Shown: piece by piece, positions 23,126-58,940 of the stretch | How positions within the stretch are numbered: the first letter of the stretch is position 1 | Layout of the letters: every line of letters starts with the position of its first letter | Notes under the pieces: model-generated | Database searches by the model: none | Seen by the model: only the letters and a program-made list of their open reading frames with translations | What the model was told of the DNA's origin: nothing | From: Micrococcus sp. 2A | GTDB taxonomy: Bacteria > Actinomycetota > Actinomycetes > Actinomycetales > Micrococcaceae | NCBI RefSeq assembly: GCF_039519235.1 | Contig: NZ_CP154351.1 | Coordinates: forward strand, 310,001 to 374,000 | Length of the DNA: 64,000 bases | Direction of reading: 5' to 3' | Translations under genes and position numbers: made by a program

Positions 23126-24340
23126 ATGACCGAGACCCTGCCCACCGTCGAGCCCGAGTACGACGTCGCCACGCCGCTGGACACCGACTTCTACCTGGCG
23201 CTCGCGGACGTCTCCGACGCCGAGAAGGACGTGTGGCGTCGGGCCCGCGCCTTCGCGCTCGAGCCGGACGTGCTGCCCCGGATCCGGGATGCATGGGACC
23301 GCCACGAGTACCCGCTGGACCTCGTGGCCCGCCTGGGGCAGGCCGACCTGCTGCGCGACGGCGTGCCCGTCGCCGGGCTGCCCGACGTGTCCCGCGTGGC
23401 CGCGGGCCTGGCCATGATGGAGCTCTCGCGGCTGGACGGCTCGATCGCCACGATGACGGGCGTGCAGGGCGGTCTGGCCATGCGCTCGATCCAGCTGTGC
23501 GGCAGCGAGGAGCAGCGTGCCGAGCACCTGCCGGCCATGGCGCGCGGCGAGCTCTACGGCGCCTTCGCGCTCACGGAGCCGACCCACGGCTCCGACTCCG
23601 TCTCGCTGGAGACCCGCGCCGAGCGCGTCGACGGCGGCTGGCGGCTGCACGGGCACAAGAAGTGGATCGGCAACGGGGCCGCCGGCGGCGTGACCGTCGT
23701 GTGGGCGCGCAGCGCCGAGGACGAGAAGGTCCGCGGGTTCATCGTGCGCCAGGAGTCCGAGGGCTACACGGCCGAGGTCATCAAGGGCAAGGTCGCGCTG
23801 CGGGCCATCGACCAGGCCCACATCACCCTCGACGGCGTGTTCGTGCCCGACGCCGACGTCCTGCCCGAGGCCCGCTCCTTCAAGGACACCTCCCGCGTCC
23901 TCTTCGCCACGCGCGTGGGCGTCGCGTGGTCCGCCCTCGGGAAGGCCGTGGGCTGCTACGAGGCGGCGGTGCACTACGCGGGGCAGCGCGTCCAGTTCGG
24001 CCGGCCGCTGGCGGCCGCCCAGAGCGTGCAGACCCGCCTGGCCGAGATGCTCTCCCAGCTCACCCAGGTGCAGCTGCTCGTGCTGCGCGCGACCCGGCTC
24101 GAAGATGAGGGCCGGCTCACCGGGCCGATGGCGTCCCTGGCCAAGTACTCGGCGACGCGCGCCGCGCGGTCCATCGCCGCGAACGCGCGCGACCTGCTCG
24201 GTGGCAACGGCATCCTCATCCAGAACGAGGTGGCCCGCCACTTCGCGGACATCGAGGCGATCCACACCTACGAGGGCACCGAGACCGTGCAGGGGCTGAT
24301 CATCGGCCGCGAGATCACGGGGGTCGGCGCGTTCGTGTGA
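23126..24340 (+). CDS. acyl-CoA dehydrogenase (glutaryl-CoA-dehydrogenase-like)
   Basis: A 404-residue FAD acyl-CoA dehydrogenase, a second copy distinct from the gene at 6194. The FAD-contact segment FALTEPTHGSDSVSLETRA, the middle-domain GHKKWIGNGAAGG and the C-terminal TYEGTETVQGLIIGREITG (catalytic glutamate in YEG) are present. The N-terminal 30 residues form an extra acidic segment as in plant-type/peroxisomal ACX4 and glutaryl-CoA dehydrogenases. GGGAGG lies upstream of the ATG. Probably controlled by the divergent TetR gene. Substrate unknown; short or branched acyl-CoA is likely. Confidence 0.9.
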   Translation: MTETLPTVEPEYDVATPLDTDFYLALADVSDAEKDVWRRARAFALEPDVLPRIRDAWDRHEYPLDLVARLGQADLLRDGVPVAGLPDVSRVAAGLAMMELSRLDGSIATMTGVQGGLAMRSIQLCGSEEQRAEHLPAMARGELYGAFALTEPTHGSDSVSLETRAERVDGGWRLHGHKKWIGNGAAGGVTVVWARSAEDEKVRGFIVRQESEGYTAEVIKGKVALRAIDQAHITLDGVFVPDADVLPEARSFKDTSRVLFATRVGVAWSALGKAVGCYEAAVHYAGQRVQFGRPLAAAQSVQTRLAEMLSQLTQVQLLVLRATRLEDEGRLTGPMASLAKYSATRAARSIAANARDLLGGNGILIQNEVARHFADIEAIHTYEGTETVQGLIIGREITGVGAFV

Positions 24341-24361: not shown

Positions 24362-24440
24362 CGTGAGCCAGAGATTCCTGCTGGTACGCACGTCCCCCTG
24401 CCGCTGATTCGTCTGGCTCGGCGGCCGATTCGTCTGGCTC
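24362..24440. repeat. left cluster of GATTCGTCTGGCTC repeats
   Basis: Two exact copies of GATTCGTCTGGCTC at 24406-24419 and 24427-24440, plus an inverted partial copy (GTGAGCCAGAGATTC, 24362-24376). The last copy supplies the stop codon of the DUF559 gene. Related copies lie on the other side of that gene at 25475-25600. Confidence 0.8.
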
Positions 24441-25380
24441 ACGCAGGCAGAGGGAGCCGCAGGTGGGCGGCGAGGTCTCGCAGCAGGGCGTCGAGGCCGC
24501 GCCGAGTGAAGACGCTGGCGGCCACGCGCAGCACGATCCACCCCTCGGCCTGCATCCGGCGGTCGCGCTCGATGTCACGGCGCCACTGCTGCGGGTCCGT
24601 CCGGTGATGATCGCCCTCGTACTGCACGCAGACGCGAGCCTCCCGCCACACCAGGTCCGGCCGGACGGTGGACCCGTCGCTCAGCATCAGCAGCGGATTC
24701 ACCTCCGGCTCCGGCACACCCGCGTCGGTCAGCGCCAGTCGCAGGAGCGTCTCGGCCCTCGAATCCGCGCCGTCCCTGAGCAGCGGCAGGGCCGCTCGCA
24801 GGGTCCGCGTCCCTCGCCTGCCGCGCACCCGCAGCACCTCCGCCTCCAGATCACGCACGGTGCACCGTGGATGCTCGCCGGGACGACGCCGGCCCGCCGG
24901 GCCGTCGGCCCGTTGCAGCAGGCTGTCCCCGGCGGCGACGACGTCGTCCAACGGCAGGCCCAGCTGCGCCAGCGCCGCCCAGGTGGCGGCCGGCGTCGTG
25001 ATCCACACCCCCGAGCGCACCAGCACGGGGTCCTGCGGGTGCAGCTCATGCCCGACGACGCCGCTGCGGCGCGGCGCCCCGCCCTCGGCCCGCGTGCGCG
25101 CCAGATGGATGGGGCCGCGCTCCCACTGCCGCGGCAGCCACATCCCCCAGAGGCGAGCGGCGGTGGCGTGGGTGGCCGCGGTGCCGGGGTTCGTCCGCTG
25201 GAGGGCGCGGACGACGTCGGCCAGTGAGGGCTGACCCGCGGCGGTGTGCCGCAGCCCGTGGTGCGGGGCGTCGAACCGGGGGCCGCGCAGGTGCGAGGCC
25301 GTCAGACCGGCCTGCAGCCCCGCGGCGACCGGGAAGACGGGGCTGAGGGTGGCGTCGTCGTGTGGAGGAGGGGCGACCAT
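24439..25380 (-). CDS. DUF559 endonuclease-like protein with AbiEi-like N-terminal part
   Basis: A 313-residue protein. The C-terminal 110 residues resemble DUF559, related to very-short-patch-repair-type endonucleases: ETLLRLALTDAGVPEPEVNP, then RPDLVWREARVCVQYEGDHH (the D...E/QYEGDxH catalytic-like segment), WRRDIERDRRMQAEGW and VLRVAASVFTRRG. The N-terminal part (SLADVVRALQRTNPGTAATHATAARLWGMWLP) looks like the AbiEi antitoxin-like region often joined to DUF559 in actinobacteria. I chose the ATG at 25380 because GGAGG lies eight bases upstream; an ATG at 25401 has none. No toxin partner is adjacent. The gene is bracketed by related repeats. Confidence 0.75.
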   Translation of the reverse strand: MVAPPPHDDATLSPVFPVAAGLQAGLTASHLRGPRFDAPHHGLRHTAAGQPSLADVVRALQRTNPGTAATHATAARLWGMWLPRQWERGPIHLARTRAEGGAPRRSGVVGHELHPQDPVLVRSGVWITTPAATWAALAQLGLPLDDVVAAGDSLLQRADGPAGRRRPGEHPRCTVRDLEAEVLRVRGRRGTRTLRAALPLLRDGADSRAETLLRLALTDAGVPEPEVNPLLMLSDGSTVRPDLVWREARVCVQYEGDHHRTDPQQWRRDIERDRRMQAEGWIVLRVAASVFTRRGLDALLRDLAAHLRLPLPA

Positions 25381-25474
25381 GCCGCCAGCCTCCCCTTCCA
25401 TGGGCGGACCCGGCGCCGCGACGGCGAGGGCCGTGGAGGGCGAGCCGGGTCGGCGGCTCTGTGCAGGAGCCGCT

Positions 25475-25600
25475 GAATCGTCTGGCTCACGTCCCCCACG
25501 CGTCCGAGCGTCGCCGAGCCAGACGAATCGGTCGTGACAGCCCCCTCAGAACAGCAGAAACGTCTGGCTCGCGCCCGCCGCAGCGTGCTGGCTCGCGCCG
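25475..25600. repeat. right cluster of GATTCGTCTGGCTC-like repeats
   Basis: Copies GAATCGTCTGGCTC (25475-25488), an inverted exact copy GAGCCAGACGAATC (25516-25529), AAACGTCTGGCTC (25558-25570) and a degenerate GTGCTGGCTCGCGCC (25586-25600). They fill the gap between tgt and the DUF559 gene, which otherwise holds no recognisable gene or promoter. Confidence 0.8.
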
Positions 25601-25629: not shown

Positions 25630-27988
<2,359 letters not shown>

Positions 27989-56546: not shown

Positions 56547-56663
56547 GGCGCCGATTCTCCCATCGGGGGGCACGCTCCTGCACAGGCGCCCCACGGGAGG
56601 CCTGCGTCCCCGGCGTCCCGGCGCCCGCCTCATCCTGTCCGCCTCCGTTGGCATACTGGCGCC

Positions 56664-58877
56664 ATGACCTCCCCCAGGCACGACGCCGGCCCGCCCCTCC
56701 CTCCCGTCGCCGCCCCGGGCGGCCCGCGGCGTGAGCCCGCGGCGGACCCGGAGCTGCACTCCCAGGCCCTGGAGGTCCTGCGCCGCCTGGTGGACCGGCC
56801 GGACGCCGAGTTCAAGGAGGGCCAGTACGAGTCCGTCGAGGCGCTCGTGGCGCACCGCCGGCGGGCGCTGGTGGTGCAGCGCACCGGCTGGGGCAAGTCC
56901 GCCGTGTACTTCGTGGCGTCCCTGCTGCTGCGGGCGCGGGGCGCCGGCCCCACGCTCATCGTCTCCCCGTTGCTGGCCCTCATGCGGGACCAGGTCTCGG
57001 CGGCGGCGCGCGCGGGCGTGCGGGCCGTGTCCGTGAGCTCCGCGAACTCCACCGAGTGGGACGAGGTCCGGGCCAAGCTCGCGGCGGACGAGGTGGACGT
57101 GCTGCTGATCTCCCCGGAGCGGCTGACCAATCCCCGCTTCCGCGAGGAGCAGCTGCCGGACCTCGTGGCCCGCATGGGCCTGCTCGTGGTGGACGAGGCC
57201 CACTGCATCTCCGACTGGGGGCACGACTTCCGGCCGGACTACCGGCGCATCCGCGACCTGATCGGACAGCTGCCCTCCCAGGGACCCCGGGCGGTGCCCG
57301 TGCTGGCCACCACCGCCACGGCCAACGCGCGCGTCGTGCAGGACGTGGTGGAGCAGCTCGGCGTGGACTCGGCGCAGGACGTCTTCGTGCTGCGCGGTCC
57401 GCTGGCGCGCGCCTCGCTGCGCCTCGGCGTGCTGCGGCTGCCGAACCCCGCGGCCCGCCTCGCGTGGCTGCTTGCCCACCTGGGAGAGCTGCCGGGTTCA
57501 GGCATCGTCTACGCGCTCACGGTCTCCGCGGCGGAGGACACGGCGCGGGTGCTGCGCGAGGCCGGCCACGAGGTGGTGGCCTACACGGGCCGCACGGACC
57601 CGGAGCAGCGCGCCCGCATCGAGGAGGACCTCAAGGCCAACCGCGTGAAGGCGGTGGTGGCCACGTCCGCGCTCGGCATGGGGTTCGACAAGCCGGACCT
57701 CACGTTCGTCGTGCACCTCGGGGCGCCGAGCTCCCCGGTGGCGTACTACCAGCAGGTCGGCCGCGCGGGCCGTGGAACGGACCACGCGGACGTGCTCCTG
57801 CTGCCCGGCGCGGAGGACCGCCAGATCTGGCAGTACTTCGCCACGGCCTCCATGCCGGACGAGGCCCAGGCCCACACGGTGCTCGCGGCGCTCTCCGCGG
57901 ACGGCGGGGCGATGTCCGTGGCGGCGCTGGAGCCCGCCGTGAGCATCAAGCGCACCGCCCTCGAGCTGCTGCTCAAGGTGCTCGCCGTGGACGGTGCGGT
58001 GGAGCGCGTGGGCGGCGGCTGGCGGTCCACGGGCCGCCCCTGGACCTACGACGGCGAGCGCTACGCCCGCGTGGCCGAGGCCCGCCGTGCGGAGGAGCGC
58101 CTCATGCTGGACTACCAGACGACGCAGACGTGCCGCATGGAGTTCCTGGCGCGGACCCTGGACGATCCCACGGCCGCGCCGTGCGGGCGGTGCGACGTCT
58201 GCGCCGGCCCGTGGTACCCCACGGGCTCGGACGGTGCCGCTCGGGAGCGCGCCGAGCACGCCCTGCACCGGGCCGGCGTCCCCCTCGAGCCGCGCCGCAT
58301 GTGGCCCTCCGGGATGGACCGGCTGGGCGTGCCGGTGACGGGCCGCATGGCCGCCGGCGCGCAGGCGGAGGAGGGGCGCGCCCTCGCGCGTCTGACGGAC
58401 CTGGGCTGGGGCGGAGTCCTGCGCGAGCTGCTCGCCGCGCCGGATGCCCCGGTGCCGGAGAACGTGCTGCAGGGCGCCGTGGGGGTCCTCGCCGGGTGGG
58501 GCTGGCAGGACCGCCCCATCGCGGTGGTGGCCATGCCCTCGAGGGGGCGGCCACAGCTCGTGGGCTCCTTCGCCGAGGGGGTCGCACGGATCGGCCGCCT
58601 GCCGTTCCTCGGCACCCTCGACCTCGTGGGCGGCGGCCCGACGGCCGGCCCGGGCGGCAACAGCGCCTACCGGCTGGCCTCGGTCCACGGCCGCTTCGCC
58701 GTCCCGCAGGCCATGGCCCACATGCTCCGCACGGCGCCTGAGGCGGGGCACGTCGGCCCCGTCCTGCTCGTGGACGACCTCGTGGACTCCCGGTGGTCGC
58801 TGGCCGAGGCCACGCGGGTGCTGCGCGAGGCCGGTGCCCAGGGGGTGCTGCCCTTCGTCCTCGCCCAGTCCGGCTGA
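56664..58877 (+). CDS. recQ: RecQ-type helicase fused to a C-terminal phosphoribosyltransferase-like domain
   Basis: A 737-residue SF2 helicase. Walker A is QRTGWGKSA (72-80), the DEAH box is VVDEAHCISDWGHDFRPDYRRI with RecQ's aromatic-rich loop, motif VI QVGRAGRG, and zinc-binding cysteines occur in QTCRMEF...CGRCDVC. The final 130 residues form a PRTase-like domain with the PRPP loop VLLVDDLVDSRWSLAEA. This fusion is common in actinobacteria; the PRTase role is unknown. CATACT (56652-56657) lies six bases before the ATG. Divergent from nsrR. Confidence 0.93.
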   Translation: MTSPRHDAGPPLPPVAAPGGPRREPAADPELHSQALEVLRRLVDRPDAEFKEGQYESVEALVAHRRRALVVQRTGWGKSAVYFVASLLLRARGAGPTLIVSPLLALMRDQVSAAARAGVRAVSVSSANSTEWDEVRAKLAADEVDVLLISPERLTNPRFREEQLPDLVARMGLLVVDEAHCISDWGHDFRPDYRRIRDLIGQLPSQGPRAVPVLATTATANARVVQDVVEQLGVDSAQDVFVLRGPLARASLRLGVLRLPNPAARLAWLLAHLGELPGSGIVYALTVSAAEDTARVLREAGHEVVAYTGRTDPEQRARIEEDLKANRVKAVVATSALGMGFDKPDLTFVVHLGAPSSPVAYYQQVGRAGRGTDHADVLLLPGAEDRQIWQYFATASMPDEAQAHTVLAALSADGGAMSVAALEPAVSIKRTALELLLKVLAVDGAVERVGGGWRSTGRPWTYDGERYARVAEARRAEERLMLDYQTTQTCRMEFLARTLDDPTAAPCGRCDVCAGPWYPTGSDGAARERAEHALHRAGVPLEPRRMWPSGMDRLGVPVTGRMAAGAQAEEGRALARLTDLGWGGVLRELLAAPDAPVPENVLQGAVGVLAGWGWQDRPIAVVAMPSRGRPQLVGSFAEGVARIGRLPFLGTLDLVGGGPTAGPGGNSAYRLASVHGRFAVPQAMAHMLRTAPEAGHVGPVLLVDDLVDSRWSLAEATRVLREAGAQGVLPFVLAQSG

Positions 58878-58940
58878 TTCGACAGAGCTGAGGCGGCGGA
58901 GGCTGATTCGCCGGGACCCGACGTGACGAGGGCTGACACG

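Follow-up and report, generated by a model that had tools for sequence, protein, structure and literature searches.

A nuclease gene with palindromes on both sides

The stretch analysed here (the window) comprises positions 310001-374000 of the genome of Micrococcus sp. 2A, i.e. 64,000 nucleotides of a single contig of 2.62 Mb. Between the genes for an acyl-CoA dehydrogenase and a queuine tRNA-ribosyltransferase (tgt) it carries one gene for a predicted nuclease which, together with the repeats at its left and right, is termed a cassette below (Table 1). Judged from sequence, gene-specific elements, often palindromes, bracket nuclease genes of this kind, some genomes have cognate palindrome families dispersed in non-coding positions, and some sites are without both gene and repeat.

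A first, sequence-only reading had reported copies of a short repeat to the left and right of one gene. Every copy it listed was found, left and right; its statement that the last left copy supplies the stop codon held for two of the three bases (TCA on the plus strand, 24439-24441). The unit of the repeat at this locus is not the single 14-mer but the paired inverted arms of palindromes. GAGCCAGACGAATC and its own reverse complement start 41 bp apart at 24365/24406, 25475/25516 and 25516/25557. The right-hand hairpins at 25473-25531 and 25514-25572 folded with z-scores of -4.4 and -3.6 against shuffles; the left hairpin folded weakly (z -1.9). The 41-bp layout, in two cases together with the 21-bp one, was also found away from the gene in the related genomes G006 and G003. 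A genome-wide count of the motif, proposed in the sequence-only reading, returned three exact matches and one with a single mismatch, all at the window locus; the reversed pattern as a control had one match in the genome. The 14-mer as a genome-wide family was thus ruled out. When up to three mismatches were allowed, 12 matches were present in the window compared to 7.3 expected, and 8 of 100 shuffles were as high. As this is not significant, the weight rests on the exact copies and their spacing.

Table 1. Positions of genes and repeat arms at the nuclease locus (numbering of the window).
Feature	Positions	Strand
Acyl-CoA dehydrogenase gene, left neighbour, outside the cassette	23126-24340	+
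3' palindrome, inverted arm in degraded form, GAGCCAGA-GATTC	24365-24377	-
Exact arm GATTCGTCTGGCTC; its inverted partner at 24365 is 41 bp away	24406-24419	+
Exact tandem arm, 21 bp after the preceding arm; overlaps the nuclease stop codon	24427-24440	+
AbiEi-like/EDxHD (Vsr, DUF559/MTES_1575) nuclease gene, open reading frame of 320 residues	24439-25401	-
CTCCTGCACAG, motif restricted to the 5' side, with the palindrome on one side of it and the start codon on the other	25459-25469	-
5' palindrome arm, 1 mismatch; folds with 25516-25529	25475-25488	+
Exact arm common to two overlapping palindromes	25516-25529	-
Arm, 2 mismatches; folds with 25516-25529	25557-25570	+
Partial arm CTGGCTCGCGCC	25588-25599	+
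Queuine tRNA-ribosyltransferase gene (tgt), right neighbour, outside the cassette	25630-26994	-

Close database relatives of 313 residues suggest that translation of the nuclease starts at codon 8. Its identity with an 'endonuclease domain-containing protein' from Micrococcus luteus, a member of a cluster of 998 sequences, is 97%. Relatives were present in 47 of 59 related genomes (E 0.001 or better), and many of them have no annotation beyond 'endonuclease domain-containing' or hypothetical protein. The protein had been read from the sequence as AbiEi-like plus DUF559; this was borne out by a PADLOC match to AbiEi (1e-5) and by the predicted structure, which matched AbiEi and an EDxHD/Vsr-like nuclease. 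The Pfam matches to MTES_1575 REase (8e-6) and DUF559 (0.008) were both below the Pfam cut-off. In the model an AbiEi-like N-terminal part (residues ~11-209) precedes an EDxHD/Vsr-like domain (214-315) which most resembles the catalytic domain of a homing endonuclease. Judged on the model, the AbiEi two-domain fold and the EDxHD catalytic fold both appear to be present. The fold search used the libraries other than 'viral', and Foldseek's own E was below 0.001 for 1zel only. E217, D249, H266 and D276 are invariant; the comparison with EDxHD enzymes was made at the level of the fold. Carriage by phages was rejected, as the protein had no match in 50,697 phage records; it matched 4 of 72,556 plasmid records, all of at least 0.75 Mb.

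Bracketing by gene-specific elements

To score bracketing, the 500 bp on the 5' and on the 3' side of a gene were compared without gaps, and a best match above 16 was taken as a pass. Among 39 genes tested in the window the nuclease scored highest (18; the next gene, 15). Fifty loci of protein relatives (30 best-per-genome and 20 paralogues) gave 37 passes compared to 3 in 300 swapped pairs; these three (L073/L066, L014/L013 and L063/L080) were taken as related genes. The second set was picked among the listed Pfam matches from 197 genomes of the class, outside the taxonomic family. Its 40 loci were filtered for an open frame of 240-519 residues and L192 on a short contig was dropped, leaving 39. 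Nineteen passed, in contrast to 0/300 swapped pairs, 1/200 random window pairs and 1/38 own-distal pairs. A third set yielded 7 passes in 14 further loci, one Bifidobacterium record included, and swapped pairs reached 16 at most. It was drawn from 21 loci; L196, L197, L200 and L204 were left out because their contigs had already been used, and L195, L198 and L203 because they belong to a near-identical Micrococcus (5 of these 7 pass).

A clear palindrome, i.e. a stem score of at least 10 in at least one copy, was present in 34 of the 56 loci of the first two sets which scored 17 or higher; both copies reached this stem score in 27 loci, compared to 6 of 200 random 85-nt stretches. The palindromes differ between genes. 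The 52 stems scoring at least 12 had a median arm of 22.5, a loop of 13 and a span of 59.5, medians which favour long arms because only such stems entered. In 30 copy pairs 14 differences were compensated, a number expected to be 1.6 and never above 5 in 200 randomisations; a further 67 were uncompensated. Pairs from RNAalifold were dropped as a measure of covariation because they are biased, counting only consistent pairs. Hairpin stability as the main constraint was weakened by columns 15, 19 and 25, which lie next to invariant columns and frequently or mostly lack pairing. Of the non-syntenic pairs, 4/29 with at least 45% protein identity and 2/1419 below reached a palindrome similarity of at least 12, not all pairs being independent as some share members. 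Palindrome likeness thus fades under about 45% protein identity. A private palindrome per nuclease would provide a predicted binding site for many family members.

A further element distinguishes the two sides of the gene. The 5' flanks of 48/89 loci contain CCTGCACAG (in Micrococcus) or a TTRTCCACA/TGTGGAYAA-like word, compared to 0/89 of the 3' flanks; discovery and count of the motif rest on one and the same data set. In loci with both a clear palindrome and the motif, the motif is the one nearer to the gene. The second word, TTRTCCACA/TGTGGAYAA, corresponds to the DnaA-box consensus. In the window an exact second CTCCTGCACAG lies at 56575-56585 (plus strand) between divergent genes which, by their translations, are regulator-like and RecQ-like helicase genes; the motif may therefore be a more general Micrococcus promoter element.

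Palindromes without a gene

In genome G132 one palindrome family occupies 36 places, two of which bracket the nuclease gene L187. This may be a lower bound as 40 of 62 candidates were scored. The congeners G203 and G238 hold two copies and one, G220 and G250 none. Coding-like frames are overlapped by 2 of the 36 places compared to 69% of random positions. Where both ends were found, 36 of 38 copies are exactly 62 bp long, and nearly all run GTTGATCA...TGATCAAC. By inspection of this family no constant tetranucleotide was seen outside the 62-bp unit, and no GTAG/CGTC tag. The contig with L187 holds 12 of 34 solo copies where 4.4 would be expected (post hoc Poisson P 0.002 with a rounded genome size), a clustering found and tested on the same data. 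Three relatives of L187 from other genomes (60-63% identity) were compared; L177 and L183 have the core GATCATGG in common, and in L181 a shared element was not detected. Existing hairpins as targets are a weak proposition (permutation p 0.015 for flank complementarity, 4/38 flanks with 8 or more). At L320 (~670-775) the palindrome stands at the tip of a long flank hairpin with a complementarity of 18/18, as if it had been inserted into the loop of an earlier terminator; this is striking in L320 only.

Solo copies were also found in Micrococcus. The window's genome contains six solo copies of the palindrome type of L061, its second cassette, and at least five of the L064 type. Of 18 solo copies fetched from four Micrococcus genomes, 16 retain a stem score of at least 11. 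L061-type solo copies are present in two same-species carriers and in 0/8 genomes without the cassette; the L011 palindrome was found in 1/11 genomes, the one carrying the L011 gene. In G006 the orthologous counterpart of G000:C1:2538168, a convergent intergenic site at C1 ~2417030-2417350, holds an unrelated palindrome, GGAACCGATACGACCCTTCTG...CAGAAGGGTCGTATCGGTTCC. At the same orthologous site a same-species draft (G059:C34 ~140100-140470) has a run of N and a C-homopolymer at the palindrome. Strong palindromes may therefore drop from drafts and copy numbers may be underestimated.

Could the palindromes be transcription terminators shared by chance, the nuclease being incidental? They are intergenic, other palindromes occupy one convergent site in other species, and the G132 flanks are C-rich, then G-rich. 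Terminators, however, need no gene-specific sequence on both sides of one gene class, and neither a uniform length of 62 bp and unchanging outer blocks nor a presence tied to a nuclease gene is required of them; also, 38 other window genes tested are without equal bracketing. This explanation is very improbable.

A regulatory role is conceivable, yet we consider it unlikely as the full explanation. The palindromes would then be AbiEi-type operators, the 5' one serving self-repression with looping to the 3' one, the solo copies would form a small regulon, and the nuclease domain would act elsewhere, e.g. in defence. According to PMC7319586, the binding sites of AbiEi and Rv2827c are 23-bp inverted repeats with a gap of 3 or 13 bp, situated within their own promoters (PDB 6y8q, 1zel). 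The geometry of the median palindrome resembles such sites by analogy, the N-terminal fold is similar, and a motif present only 5' lies at the promoter side. Differences are that no AbiEii (DUF1814) toxin gene lies beside the nuclease in the window, that the sites here are also downstream and scattered, and that an extra nuclease domain exists. Operators do not account for the element 3' of the stop codon, for 32/34 G132 solo copies outside of coding-like frames or for the near absence of this family from four congeners.

Cassette-free sites

The acyl-CoA dehydrogenase/tgt site was compared in 11 Micrococcus genomes. Four carry a gene, among them G003 with a 57% relative and different repeats, five have none and two were not assigned. 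In G007 and G008 the flanking genes are ~40-90 bp apart and the repeat pair has no match anywhere in either genome. The L061 cassette is present in 3/11 genomes, absent in 7/11 and not assigned in one; in these seven its neighbours, presumably pdxS and pdxT from their protein sequences, are 8-50 bp apart. The L061 palindromes sit within the inserted stretch, not at its extreme ends. The sequence-only reading had named a mobile cassette as one possibility and suggested a comparison for an empty site with one repeat copy. Gene and repeats do behave as a unit, with no gene in five of the 11 genomes and with relatives in many genera bracketed by repeats of their own, but a leftover copy was found neither in G007 and G008 at tgt nor at the seven L061-free sites. 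A simple insertion into one repeat therefore fails at these sites.

The short gaps would also fit a homing-type selfish gene whose nuclease cuts cassette-free alleles so that repair copies the cassette in, the palindromes being carried binding sites and the solo copies scars. The nuclease domain, as modelled, is closest to the catalytic domain of a homing endonuclease, and PMC3943268 describes I-Bth0305I (PDB 3r3p), an EDxHD homing endonuclease, as forming a dimer on a target almost 60 bp long. The likeness includes, on the model, the catalytic fold and may extend to the conserved E, D, H and D; differences are that there is no intron here, no palindrome at cassette-free sites and another DNA-binding part. 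Since a repeat copy is absent from cassette-free sites, and since no relative of L187 was found near G132 solo copies within the fetched stretches (~0.7 kb on each side), which leaves solo copies as scars unsupported, homing is a rather remote prospect.

A proposed self-contained element and its relation to known systems

We lean slightly towards a self-contained element of gene and palindromes in which the palindromes would serve as binding sites of the protein encoded between them and spread jointly with the cassette, in a REPtron-like manner although the enzyme is unrelated. Its order would be palindrome, short spacer with the promoter-side motif, nuclease gene, palindrome. The AbiEi-like N-terminal part (~11-209) may bind each dyad half in its double-stranded form; attached to this part, the EDxHD/Vsr-like domain (214-315) would cut or nick at or near the bound palindromes. 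Repair or rejoining would copy palindromes, more rarely an entire cassette, to other intergenic sites. Protein on the promoter-side palindrome may also limit expression of its own gene; autoregulation alone would cover this palindrome but not the remaining features. We infer binding, cutting and movement by the nuclease/palindrome system; mobility is suggested, at the level of sequence, by copy number, location and cassette-free sites.

Several observations weigh against such an element. Bracketing is not universal (13/50, 20/39 and 7/14 loci failed), and 22/56 passing loci are without a clear palindrome. One covariation measure was not significant (7 pairs compared to 5.7, 118/500 shuffles). 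The window arms (14 bp, 27 apart) fit poorly to a 23/13 geometry. None of the five other relatives in the window's genome exceeds 51% identity; a recent cassette duplication is thus not apparent. A target duplication or an exact cassette end was not found, the flanks being too diverged to fix ends. Window-type solo copies exist in G003, whose relative of the nuclease reaches just 57%, and in G002, whose tgt site yielded no orthologue. G004 with a diverged L061 cassette has no solo copy among the matches listed, and one solo site in a terminator-like position holds unrelated palindromes in other species. In its own genome the window's palindrome type is represented by one diverged solo hairpin (2420150) and is therefore not abundant. 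The earlier idea of a repeat family used by the nuclease thus fits the relatives (36 copies in G132, six L061-type solo copies) but not for the window's own repeat.

Repetitive extragenic palindromes (REPs) offer the comparison. According to PMC6006769 and PMC3733652, REPtrons consist of a tnpA-REP/RAYT gene flanked by its own REP palindrome family, one per enzyme, with several families per genome, intergenic solo copies and subterminal palindromes as in IS200/IS605. The nuclease loci share with them a single gene flanked by private palindromes (not at every locus), several families per genome, a subterminal position of the palindromes and multi-copy intergenic dispersal, i.e. 36 places in G132, the copy number in the window's genome being low. 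The REPtron enzyme is a HUH tyrosine transposase in contrast to the AbiEi/EDxHD nuclease, for which Pfam gave matches to MTES_1575/DUF559 only; the GTAG/CGTC tag at the hairpin foot was not seen in the G132 family, and the palindromes here are of ~60 bp. Because the defining enzyme is absent, the nuclease element is not a member of the REPtrons. The Vsr mismatch endonuclease (PDB 1vsr, 1cw0) differs as a stand-alone repair enzyme which is not known to have bracketing palindromes.

The data suggest that the bracketed nuclease genes of many actinobacteria constitute an unrecognised selfish or self-regulating DNA element. None of the open-licence PMC papers listed was seen to connect palindromes or REP-like repeats to genes of the DUF559, MTES_1575 or Vsr-like kind. 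Some REP families 'apparently lack a dedicated transposase', in the wording of PMC3733652, and the nuclease/palindrome system may bear on them. We give an even chance to the broader proposal that AbiEi-EDxHD nucleases form an undescribed selfish class, each recognising and propagating private palindromes of ~60 bp, across Actinomycetes as an independent counterpart of RAYT/REP, which could supply the missing enzymes of transposase-less REP families. If true, enzyme-plus-palindrome families arose at least twice; if binding holds, nature would offer in these pairs a library of ~60-bp DNA-recognition specificities.

A pair related to the repeat had been noted after recQ. At 58873-58935, straight after the RecQ-like gene, there are imperfect short direct repeats GGCTGATTCG / GGCTGATTCG / GGCTGACACG which have only GCTGATTCG in common with the motif flank and are not copies of the palindrome arm. 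The L064 locus (G000:C1:1832288-1835888) is hotspot-like; other Micrococcus species hold different nuclease relatives or partial matches there, with L071 at the orthologous site of G006 and gaps of ~40-65 bp in G004 and G001.
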